The notes under the pieces are model-generated. The model searched no databases. It was given only the letters and a program-made list of their open reading frames with translations, and was not told the origin of the DNA. The position numbers and the translations under genes are program-made. A stretch of DNA of 64,000 bases, from contig NZ_PVTE01000030.1 of the NCBI RefSeq assembly GCF_003002825.1, forward strand, positions 1 to 64,000, in the 5' to 3' direction. Source of the stretch: Spirosoma oryzae (GTDB taxonomy: Bacteria; Bacteroidota; Bacteroidia; Cytophagales; Spirosomataceae). Below, in pieces: positions 20,430-53,372 of this stretch. The stretch's first letter is position 1, and every line of letters starts with the position of its first letter.

Positions 20430-20584
20430 GGTGTCCGGTACACGGTTATCGGTATTCAGTATACGGTTTACGGCGGCAACCCTCAGGATAGGGCAAACGT
20501 CGAATTGATACGCTGTAAGGGAAGCTGCACAGCTACAACCGAAAACGGAATACTGTAGACCTTAAACCGTATACCGTAAACCGA
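20430..20584. repeat. Inverted repeat element, CGGTTTACGGT family (1)
   Basis: Left arm 20435-20476 and right arm 20538-20583 are inverted relatives built from words such as cggtttacgg, cggtatacgg and acagtat, around a unique core of about 60 bp. The right arm ends 14 bp before the mbnP-like start codon. No ORF or transposase is inside. Confidence 0.75.
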
Positions 20585-20597
20585 TTACTAAACCGCC

Positions 20598-50277: not shown

Positions 50278-51162
50278 ATGAGTGTTTTAGTTAACAAAGA
50301 CTCCAAAGTAATCGTCCAGGGTTTCACTGGTTCGGAAGGCAGCTTTCACGCCCAGCAGATGATCGAATACGGTACCAACGTGGTTGGTGGCGTAACGCCC
50401 GGTAAAGGTGGCCAAACCCACCTCGATCGCCCTGTTTTCAACACGGTCCGTCAGGCCGTTGAAGAAGCGAGTGCGGATACGTCGATCATTTTTGTTCCAC
50501 CCGCGTTTGCCGCCGACGCCATCATGGAAGCCGCTGATGCAGGCATCAAAGTCATTATCTGCATTACGGAAGGTATTCCAACCGCAGACATGGTTGCGGT
50601 GAAGCACTACCTGTCTGACATCAATAAAGACGTAAAACTGATCGGCCCGAACTGCCCCGGCGTAATGACCGCTGAAGAATGCAAGGTGGGTATCATGCCC
50701 GGCTTCATTTTCAAGAAAGGTACGATTGGTATCGTTTCCAAGTCAGGTACGCTGACCTACGAAGCGGTCGATCAGCTGACGAAAGCAGGTCTGGGCCAAA
50801 GCACCGCTATCGGTATCGGGGGTGACCCAATCATCGGTACGACGACCAAACAGGCCGTTGAACTGCTGATGAACGATCCGGAAACCGAAGCCATCGTCAT
50901 GATCGGCGAAATCGGTGGGGGCATGGAAGCCGAAGCCGCCCGCTGGATCAAAGCCGACGGTAACCGCAAGCCGGTCGTTGGCTTTATCGCCGGGCAGACA
51001 GCGCCGAAAGGTCGTCGGATGGGCCACGCCGGTGCAATTGTCGGTGGCGCTGACGATACTGCCGCGGCTAAAATGGCCATCATGCGCGAGTGCGGTATTC
51101 ACGTTGTTGAATCCCCCGCTCTCATCGGCGACACGATGCTGAAGGCACTAGGCAAAAATTAA
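50278..51162 (+). CDS. sucD: Succinate-CoA ligase, alpha subunit
   Basis: 294 residues. [19 protein letters not shown] binds Co[21 protein letters not shown] follows, and the phosphorylated His250 is in [10 protein letters not shown]. With SucC it makes succinate and ATP/GTP in the citric acid cycle; sucC is not in the window, which is usual for Bacteroidota where the two genes are split. Confidence 0.97.
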
Positions 51163-51163
51163 T

Positions 51164-51292
51164 GCGTGAATGAGTGAATGGGTGAATGAGCGATTACGAC
51201 ACAACGCAAAAGAACGGGCCATTTTTCGGCGATTCGATCTTTTGCTTTTTGTCCTATTCACGCATTCACTCATTCTTTCATTCACTCATTCT
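51164..51292. repeat. Inverted repeat built of GTGAATGA words
   Basis: Left arm 51164-51190 (gcgtgaatgagtgaatgggt and on) and right arm 51256-51292 (attcacgcattcactcattc and on) are inverted copies of an 8-bp word around a 65-bp core. It begins 2 bp after the sucD stop and extends into the N-terminal coding part of the DUF4271 gene. Confidence 0.8.
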
Positions 51293-52408
51293 ACCACTGC
51301 CCAGCCCCGCAACGAAGGGATCGGACCGGGCGGACAATATTATCCGGTTCACTCGTTTCAGGACGATTTTCAGGTGTTCGATGCCGCTACGCAGGCGTAC
51401 GTTCCTTACATTCCTGAACTCCATGCCACGCAAACGGCACTCAGTGCTTATGTCGATTTGGAAAGTAACCGGCATTACAAGCTGTTGCTGACTACGAAAG
51501 ACGATGGCTACCTCTTCATCAATGCCGCACTTCGGCGTAATTTACGAGCTGGTACATGGCTGATACTCGACATCGACAGTCTGTTCCGAGCCTACCGCCG
51601 TCCCGAAATTTTTCTAACCGTATACGGGTCACCGGGTGTTGCGGGTAAGCAGCTGTACATTGCCTATCCGCGTTCGGCTGCGCAGAAAACCATCGTACTG
51701 CGCGACGACAATCTCAGTGTGCGGCCCCGACCTGTATCGGTCTACACCAACCTGCTGGGTGTAGGCCTACTGATCATACTGGCGTTCTTCGCGTTTCTGT
51801 TTTCGTTTCACAACCGGGCGTTCGAACGGTTTTTCAGCCCGCGTGATCTGCTGTCCGTTCGGGCGCAGGAGGAGTCATTTCTGATCGGCAGGCCACTAAG
51901 CAGTGTGAATCTGCTGTTTACGCTGGGGCTGAGTTTGCTCACGAGCTACCTGATTATGCTCGCCCAGAGCCACCGTGTCGACGTTTTTTCGGCCCGCTTG
52001 TTATTGCCTAACCTGACGCAGTGGGGCGGTGTCGGCACAGAATACGTAGTACTGACGGTGCTGGCATTCGGGGCGCTGATCGGTAAATATGCCTTGATTG
52101 ACGTGATTAGTGGGCTGTACAAACTCCACGAAATCGCTAATGTCCATTTCTTTAAGATACTTCAGTCGTCGCTGCTGTTCTTCACGTCGATGACGCTGGT
52201 ACTGCTGGTCATATCCTATAATATTGATCAAACGGTTTGGTCGGAAAACGCGCTGCTGTTTCCCCTAATCGGCTTTTATACAGCACGGGTAGCCTTGCTC
52301 TATGTGGTGATCCGGGCGAGTGAGTCTATCAAGAATCTTTATTTATTTTCGTACCTTTGCATCGTCGAACTGATACCGCTCATCATCGGATTGCGCTTCA
52401 TTCTCTGA
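51170..52408 (+). CDS. DUF4271 membrane protein
   Basis: 412 residues. After a signal-like hydrophobic stretch (FDLLLFVLFTHSLILSFTHS) comes a soluble domain, then about six membrane segments with the DUF4271 pattern (LFTLGLSLLTSYLIMLAQS, FGALIGKYALIDVISGLY, RASESIKNLYLFSYLCIVEL). The gene is a regular neighbour of hemD and gliding genes in Cytophagales. The first 12 residues and the signal are encoded inside the GTGAATGA repeat, so the true start may be later. Confidence 0.8.
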   Translation: MSEWVNERLRHNAKERAIFRRFDLLLFVLFTHSLILSFTHSTTAQPRNEGIGPGGQYYPVHSFQDDFQVFDAATQAYVPYIPELHATQTALSAYVDLESNRHYKLLLTTKDDGYLFINAALRRNLRAGTWLILDIDSLFRAYRRPEIFLTVYGSPGVAGKQLYIAYPRSAAQKTIVLRDDNLSVRPRPVSVYTNLLGVGLLIILAFFAFLFSFHNRAFERFFSPRDLLSVRAQEESFLIGRPLSSVNLLFTLGLSLLTSYLIMLAQSHRVDVFSARLLLPNLTQWGGVGTEYVVLTVLAFGALIGKYALIDVISGLYKLHEIANVHFFKILQSSLLFFTSMTLVLLVISYNIDQTVWSENALLFPLIGFYTARVALLYVVIRASESIKNLYLFSYLCIVELIPLIIGLRFIL

Positions 52409-52506: not shown

Positions 52507-53289
52507 ATGAACGAGACCAATACCGCACAAACCCAAAATCGAGAGACGAAAGTTAACCGGTTGCTAGTATCTCAATCGCGACCTGCAGACGAAAAGTCTC
52601 CTTACTTTGATCTAGCCTCTAAATACAATATTCAGGTCGAATTCCGCCCGTTTATTCAGATACAGGGCATCTCGTATAAGGACTTTCGCAAGCAAAAAGT
52701 TAATATTCTGGATCATACGGCCGTTATTTTCACCAGCCGTAATGCCATCGATCACTTTTTCCGCCTGTGCCAGGAAGGGCGGGTTGAAGTGCCAGCCGAC
52801 ATGAAGTATTTCTGCATCTCGGAGCAGACAGCCAACTACCTACAGAAGTACATCGTCATCCGGAAACGGAAAATATTCACCGGTACCAAAACGGCCGCTG
52901 AGTTGTTCGATCTGATCAAAAAGCACAAGAACGAGAAGTTTCTGTTCCCGTGCTCCAATATCCGGCGAAACGATATTCCCGAATTCATGGATACCAGCGG
53001 GCTGCATTTCACCGAAGCAGTTATCTACGAAACCGTCGCTACCGATCTGTCGGATATCGATATTCATCAGTTCGACATCATCGCGTTTTTCAGCCCATCC
53101 GGTATTGCGTCGCTGTTGGCCAACTTCCCTAACTTCGAACAAAACGGTACACGTCTGGCCGCCTTCGGCCCCACGACGGCGAAAGCCATCGTCGACGCCG
53201 GTCTGCACCTCGATATAGAAGCACCACTACCCAATGCGCCGTCGATGACCGGCGCGCTGGAGCTGTACATCAAGAAAGTAAACGGCTGA
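52507..53289 (+). CDS. hemD: Uroporphyrinogen-III synthase
   Basis: 260 residues. LLVSQSRPADEKSPYFDLAS, HTAVIFTSRNAIDHFF, FCISEQTANYLQKY and IAFFSPSGIASLLANF with RLAAFGPTTAKAIVDAGL follow the HemD two-domain pattern. It closes and flips ring D of hydroxymethylbilane for heme and siroheme. Co-directional with the DUF4271 gene. Confidence 0.9.
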   Translation: MNETNTAQTQNRETKVNRLLVSQSRPADEKSPYFDLASKYNIQVEFRPFIQIQGISYKDFRKQKVNILDHTAVIFTSRNAIDHFFRLCQEGRVEVPADMKYFCISEQTANYLQKYIVIRKRKIFTGTKTAAELFDLIKKHKNEKFLFPCSNIRRNDIPEFMDTSGLHFTEAVIYETVATDLSDIDIHQFDIIAFFSPSGIASLLANFPNFEQNGTRLAAFGPTTAKAIVDAGLHLDIEAPLPNAPSMTGALELYIKKVNG

Positions 53290-53312: not shown

Positions 53313-53372
53313 CGGCAGACGGATAGGATATGGGTTCAGTAACTCATTTTCTGTCCGTCTGCCGTTGTTTTT
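53313..53372 (+). terminator. Terminator after hemD
   Basis: cggcagacggatag / ctgtccgtctgccg form a near-perfect 14-bp stem with a 24-nt loop, followed by ttgttttt. It separates hemD from the T9SS genes. Confidence 0.85.

Follow-up and report, generated by a model that had tools for sequence, protein, structure and literature searches.

How did the gene for a membrane protein of Spirosoma oryzae come to begin inside an inverted repeat, and is any of that repeat translated? The site is the junction between sucD and a DUF4271 gene, in a window of 64,000 nucleotides (the whole stretch of DNA that was analyzed; positions are counted from its first letter). The answer we think likely is that the hairpin at this junction takes the place of a hairpin at the 3' end of sucD, that the putative signal peptide of the DUF4271 protein is read through the right arm, and that the words in the arms turn over between species.

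The hairpin and the reading frame behind sucD

The features at the junction are as follows.

50278..51162, + strand: sucD, succinyl-CoA ligase alpha subunit (PF02629, PF00549); its stop codon touches the left arm
51161..51291, no strand: octamer-word inverted repeat, one long hairpin (inverted-repeat search and RNA folding)
51161..51198, + strand: left arm, purine-rich, with GTGAATGA words; holds ATG 51170
51256..51291, + strand: right arm, pyrimidine-rich; encodes FTHSLILSFTHS, part of a hydrophobic N-terminal stretch
51170..52408, + strand: ORF of the DUF4271 membrane protein, longest form, with its ATG within the left arm
51242..51244, + strand: TTG, alternative start, which would give a putative signal peptide of 20 residues
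51170..51301, + strand: putative signal peptide, longest form, judged by eye; cleavage presumed between TTA and QPR
51764..52402, + strand: Pfam DUF4271 domain (PF14093)

As the sequence-only reading had noticed, an inverted repeat of short words lies right behind sucD. Its left arm begins at the sucD stop codon (51160-51162), which is followed by GTGAATGA words and their variants; the complementary words lie 62-68 bases further on. The arms form two overlapping pairs that are 85% and 81% complementary. RNA folding of positions 51140-51310 gave -66.5 kcal/mol, compared to -36.4 (standard deviation 3.8) for shuffled sequences (z = -7.85), and none of 200 shuffles was as good. As a single word, GTGAATGA is not clearly enriched in the window, with 4 matches versus 2.05 expected (15 of 100 shuffles reach 4). 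An Rfam match was to a microRNA family, at 24.3 bits against a cutoff of 86, and we took it as chance.

The DUF4271 frame is open from ATG 51170 through the right arm, which does encode part of the signal-like stretch, as had been proposed. Near the N-terminus, this frame contains ATG 51170, GTG 51182, and TTG 51242, and the next ATG, GTG, or TTG is codon 69. Thus, a protein that begins at a usual start and includes its conserved N-terminal part must contain the residues of the right arm. It had also been claimed that the only good start lies in the left arm: ATG 51170 does lie there, but TTG 51242, ahead of the right arm, is usable as well, and both are possible starts in the window. The PF14093 match (E = 6.4e-17) covers residues 199-411 of the ORF. 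By eye and by hydropathy, the N-terminus has a charged n-region, a hydrophobic core (weakened by H and S residues in this genome), and an A-x-A-like cleavage site, which we place between TTA and QPR because protein conservation starts just behind it. From its appearance, then, this N-terminus is a putative signal peptide.

Word-type inverted repeats across the genome

The window hairpin has a stable stem and arms of repeated complementary words, like the dispersed word-type intergenic hairpins of its genome (G000). In a 1.1-Mb sample of G000, our search for inverted repeats with arms of at least 24 found 109; a Markov shuffle of one 0.4-Mb stretch (C1) gave 0, versus 41 in the real sequence. 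By a strict measure, a period of 7-9 bases is present in 24 of the 109 left arms, against an expectation of 0.3; by extrapolation, the genome would have about 650 inverted repeats, of which about 140 are strictly word-periodic. Three fetched stretches that were chosen for holding matches (C7, C18, and C2:100001-120000) were excluded from all counts. The word dialects of G000 include GTGAATGA, TTGAATGATTGA, GAAAGAGTG, GGTTTACGGTATTCGG, and GACAGGATT, and a two-word GTGAATGA pattern with at most 2 mismatches has 179 matches in the genome, versus 9 for the reversed control. Within the 1.1-Mb sample, several dialects of word-type repeats coexist with other long palindromes.

These dispersed repeats are features of the 3' ends of genes. 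Using a crude gene caller and leaving out the 24 of 109 repeats that overlap ORF ends, we found that 29 of the remaining 85 lie between convergent genes, which account for 16% of intergenic bases (over-represented, p = 4e-5), and 7 between divergent genes, which account for 19% (p = 0.012). Where the two neighboring genes are codirectional, the median distance from the upstream stop codon to the left arm is 7 nt (n = 69, inverted repeats of all kinds). The dispersed hairpins, and the junction hairpin with them, may act as terminators. A strict scan found no terminator at the window site, where the right arm ends with no more than two T in a row, and the genome-wide directional comparison of T-runs behind the arms gave 1.88 versus 1.87 (n = 69, p = 0.88). 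An excess of T-runs at the junctions (4.47 versus 2.54) was not used: it counts the last 8 bases of the arm and is confounded by pyrimidine words.

Elsewhere in the window, a hairpin at 53313-53364, behind a HEM4-domain gene (52507-53289), is kept in the genome G020 with changed arms, and at 20445-20588 there is an inverted repeat of CGGTTTAC words, which are rearranged at the same place in G020. For five of the six inverted repeats of the window, the corresponding place in G020 was found; a relaxed search, run with no shuffle control, shows a hairpin with changed arms at each.

How often does such a repeat enter a protein? Of the 109 repeats, 20 overlap the 5' end of a crude ORF call; by eye, a usual start follows the arm in most of them. 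We then surveyed 276 inverted repeats with arms of at least 18 (552 strand-sites) in 1.16 Mb of G000 and 0.4 Mb of G020. At seven sites, the right arm shares its frame with an ORF of 100 codons or more, and the 20 codons that follow contain no start. Two of these are the sucD-DUF4271 junctions of G000 and G020, and four have an ATG 24 to 37 codons on. The seventh (G000, C5:4100-4271) is a GACAGGATT-word repeat whose last bases are the ATG of an ORF of 810 residues; the encoded N-terminus is hydrophobic, and the start codon is all that the repeat contributes. The sucD-DUF4271 junction is therefore the only site that forces such a fusion among the 276 inverted repeats sampled in the two genomes.

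The same junction in related bacteria

Searches for DUF4271 gave 60 loci, and we kept the 53 with sucD directly upstream; for the seven that were dropped (L024-L030), no sucD was found beside the gene or there was no DUF4271 match. The interval from the sucD stop codon to the mature part of DUF4271 (marked by a GxGP motif) was compared to 200 dinucleotide shuffles. In 47 of the 53 junctions, there is an inverted repeat at p <= 0.01, the exceptions being L008, L015, L016, L020, L149, and L150, and the RNA fold has z < -3 in 46 of 53 (median -5.6). L149 and L150, from the outgroup g45, have hairpins at p = 0.08 and 0.06 whose stems end in seven T. A scan of named genomes, with alignment, found 33 named loci, which were not added as many repeat the genomes of the 53. 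Twenty-seven of these reach p <= 0.01; among the six that do not are short hairpins (L194, L195, L196, and L199). The words at the junction vary by species (GTGAATGA, GAAAGAGC, AAAATGA, AATTAAG, ATGAATGATGA, and mixtures), and the two arms match each other within each junction although the words differ between species. L004, L005, L009, L011, and L013 also have a non-periodic module like GCCGCAACGGATGTTGAAAG among the words; similar modules occur elsewhere in few copies, for instance in G005 and G018 (18 genomes searched).

We called a junction strictly fused if the inverted repeat was significant and its right arm lay in the DUF4271 frame, with a usable start before the right arm and none after it that leaves 15 residues. 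Strict fusion was found in 34 of the 53 junctions, all within one clade of 43 rows (34/43); the nine unfused rows of that clade (L004, L008, L015, L016, L019, L020, L122, L132, and L142) include several borderline cases. As for the proposal that a repeat was co-opted as a signal peptide, dispersed hairpin-type DNA does give part of the hydrophobic N-terminus, both in the window and across the fused junctions; the part about function is suggested by the look of the N-terminus. The data do not support an event of one gene in one species: the overlap spans the 43-row clade, the words differ by species, and outgroups already have a hairpin at the junction.

The fusion would be an artefact if DUF4271 were translated from a later or unusual start and had no signal peptide in Spirosoma. 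The frame upstream of the gene can indeed be without any start: L122 (G206) has no in-frame ATG, GTG, or TTG upstream of mature DUF4271, and nine consecutive T lie at the end of its right arm. This may be due to a frameshift, to slippage, or to a sequencing error, which look alike here. We consider an artefact very unlikely, given the lack of ATG, GTG, or TTG from the right arm to codon 69 in the window, the open and start-bearing frame that 34 of the 53 loci keep through the arm, and the hydrophobic N-termini of outgroup homologues, which by eye resemble signal peptides.

The outgroups suggest a direction of change. In a midpoint-rooted tree of SucD and DUF4271 for the 53 rows, the deep fork with the 43-row clade has support of 93/94, not starred. 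Outside the clade, the unfused rows are eight from genera g30 and g40 and two from g45. At eight outgroup loci (seven from Emticicia and one from a Cytophagaceae MAG), the hairpin is compact and comes with six or seven T, and the hydrophobic N-terminus is separate from it; in the Emticicia junctions, the T-run is right behind the stem. Four of five Larkinella loci have word-type inverted repeats; the start comes later there, and the hydrophobic N-terminus lies behind the repeat. Because outgroups hold a hairpin and a separate N-terminus, the hairpin at the junction looks older than its overlap with coding sequence, and the overlap looks derived.

Is the overlapping part under selection as coding sequence? 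We counted substitutions by codon position in eight close pairs (one row serves in two pairs). Rates at the three positions were 0.05/0.01/0.26 in the mature part of DUF4271, 0.14/0.07/0.23 in the signal-peptide part (codons -26 to -4), and 0.25/0.23/0.23, that is, no bias, in codons -46 to -26. Length differences in two of the pairs blur the upstream class; without those two pairs, hand sums gave 15, 5, and 27 changes in 132 codons of the signal-peptide part and 16, 17, and 18 changes in 120 codons upstream. Because of the codon-position bias, the part that holds the right arm appears to be coding, under a constraint weaker than that on the mature part. The counts are flat where the left arm and the loop would be read, and translation of the left arm in the window genome is at most suggested.

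Perhaps, then, only the right arm is coding: translation would start at TTG 51242 and give a signal peptide of 20 residues, which is an ordinary length, and the left arm would be an untranslated hairpin at the 3' end of sucD. Conservation with the nearest relative begins at about that codon, and the flat substitution counts lie before it. Other loci do not fit as well. Three loci have a single usable start, defined as leaving 15-75 residues before the inferred cleavage site: an ATG in L007 and in L123 and a GTG in L018. It precedes the called left arm by 2-3 bases, and translation from it should include that arm. In L131, the only ATG is just behind the called left arm. Also, L001 and L002 both have 147 nt from the ATG to the GxGP motif, though the stretch before the ATG differs by 8 nt. 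A start at TTG 51242 is a real possibility, but our judgment leans against it and toward a reading in which the left arm would, in some species, be translated as well.

Comparison of close relatives shows that the words turn over. L141 and L143 are 94.2% identical in sucD and 94.2% in DUF4271, but just 68.0% in the interval: one has AAGAGTTA words and the other has ATGATGA words, and the hydrophobic stretch behind is kept. Their arms match those of Larkinella humicola (L190) and Larkinella sp. C7 (L191) letter for letter, and both genomes contain both words elsewhere. Similarly, L131 and L132 are 93.1% identical in sucD, 84.7% in DUF4271, and 61.0% in the interval; the N-terminus is rewritten, and the arms are as in S. 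luteum (L184) and S. spitsbergense (L185). Other close pairs (L014/L016, L011/L013, and L126/L127) keep the interval at 93-95% identity, so the exchange of words is occasional. Smaller changes gave a mixed picture: compared to L126 and L127, L128 has two adjacent paired changes that preserve pairing (these may be one event), and L011 and L013 differ at seven pairs with 0 compensated. It is less clear that a junction takes the words of its own genome. Junctions of the AATTAAG type (L138, L139, and L141) are in genomes rich in AATTAAG, in which the reversed control is also high; comparing the GTGAATGA and GAAAGAGC dialects between junction and genome gave p = 0.053 with L135 placed by hand; and G005 is rich in ATGATGA words, yet its junction has another dialect.

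The repeat might instead be a by-product: the signal peptide would be old pyrimidine-rich coding DNA, and the upstream arm would have been copied from it by template switching in a hairpin. Such copying could account for arms that match within each junction while the words differ between species, and it fits the coding constraint on the right-arm part. Four Larkinella loci already weakened this idea, as they have a like repeat at a like place with the hydrophobic N-terminus behind it, and the words recur many times elsewhere in the genomes. Furthermore, in L008, L015, and L019, a compact hairpin with an ATG of its own close behind stands in place of the word repeat, and the N-terminal residues are different and unrelated. 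Homologues without the repeat thus do not keep the same N-terminus, and the claim of co-option survives this comparison. We think that copying from old coding DNA is quite unlikely and that the hairpin came before the coding overlap. L008, L015, and L019 also carry a TA(T/C)CTTTG box, which we take to resemble a Bacteroidota promoter motif; if it is a promoter, their hairpin would sit near the 5' end of the DUF4271 transcript.

A possible history and known systems

Why could a hairpin spell a signal peptide? An 8-base word gives one cyclic octapeptide in all three frames: this is SFTHSLIH for the complement of GTGAATGA and ALSLFRSF for that of GAAAGAGC, and left-arm words read as VNE-stop-MSE-stop or ERAKERKS. 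Words of 7 or 8 bases would spell the same cyclic peptide whatever the frame. A purine-rich arm would encode K, E, R, and S and its pyrimidine-rich complement F, L, S, I, and H. Reading one and then the other would give start codons and charged residues followed by a more hydrophobic peptide, which is the order of a signal peptide, if the stop codons of the left arm are avoided. The repeat could work as a signal peptide because its complementary arms give a charged and then a hydrophobic peptide, with the frame irrelevant. Not every word is suited: what the 9-base GACAGGATT word encodes depends on the frame, and the complement of CGGTTTAC reads as hydrophilic residues with a stop codon.

In the history that we propose, a word-type inverted repeat would have taken the place of the hairpin at the 3' end of sucD, a presumed terminator or stabilizer of the transcript end. 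In an ancestor of the Spirosoma group, the hairpin would have come to enclose the DUF4271 signal peptide, with the right arm read as part of the hydrophobic core; where the sole usable start precedes the left arm, that arm would supply the charged N-region. When the hairpin is replaced by one with other words, perhaps by some kind of swapping, the N-terminus would be rewritten and its class kept.

A stronger version holds that word hairpins are exchangeable, frame-independent signal-peptide cassettes and that the DUF4271 start, paired in the left arm, is translated only when ribosomes terminating on sucD re-initiate and melt the hairpin. We consider this unlikely. If it is true, one RNA would be the 3' end of sucD, a translational coupler, and a signal peptide, despite replacement of its letters.

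If the proposed history is correct, this junction is a replicated natural experiment in which non-coding hairpin DNA turned coding, with 34 of 53 loci fused; the outgroups suggest the direction, and close pairs show the exchanged DNA. It would also suggest that the change is easy, since purine and pyrimidine arms give charged and then hydrophobic residues and a word length that is not divisible by three makes the frame irrelevant. For annotators, ORFs near such hairpins would often be over-extended, yet sometimes truly pass through them.

In the openly licensed literature, we found no report of a clade in which exchanged words of an intergenic hairpin rewrite the signal peptide of a conserved gene, and nothing on point about Spirosoma repeats, DUF4271, or hairpin terminators of Bacteroidetes. 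Several known systems are related. The signal peptide of YPO1552 of Yersinia is described as partly formed by an RU-2/YPAL element (Delihas 2007, PMC2759123; review, PMC2229807). There, as here, a predicted signal peptide begins in a dispersed repeat that can form a hairpin; as described in those sources, that case involves a single element family and a single putative gene of close relatives, whereas ours involves a family-wide conserved gene, a whole clade, and several dialects. Rickettsia palindromic elements (105-146 bp) are reported to be translated in frame in conserved genes (PMC2229807). In our case, too, a palindromic repeat may be read in frame, as the lack of a start right after the right arm and the codon-position bias suggest. 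According to that review, the Rickettsia elements sit in 19 reading frames of various genes; ours is a word-arm hairpin at a gene junction, with one forced site among 276 inverted repeats, and unlike a single family in many genes, its words differ between species.

Coding palindromes are described in Nematomorpha mitochondria, where long inverted repeats have their two arms within coding sequence (PMC6649704). As here, hydrophobic residues of one arm are faced by hydrophilic ones; those are mitochondrial genes with perfect arms that encode conserved regions, and the part of that source used here does not mention dispersed words. PARCEL is described as palindromic repeat DNA co-opted in membrane-targeted proteins (PMC2996958), but it is a tandem protein motif of 25 residues and not a signal peptide derived from a hairpin between genes. 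TAACTGA heptamer repeats near start codons, also reported in five Bacteroidetes (PMC4679880), are likewise short-word repeats directly upstream of start codons; they differ in that one word is repeated in direct orientation (in the genome described there, 169 sets are direct and one is indirect). A repeat-derived signal peptide had already been proposed, and in-frame palindromes were known; as far as we found, the rewriting of a signal peptide across a clade by the exchange of words would be the new part.
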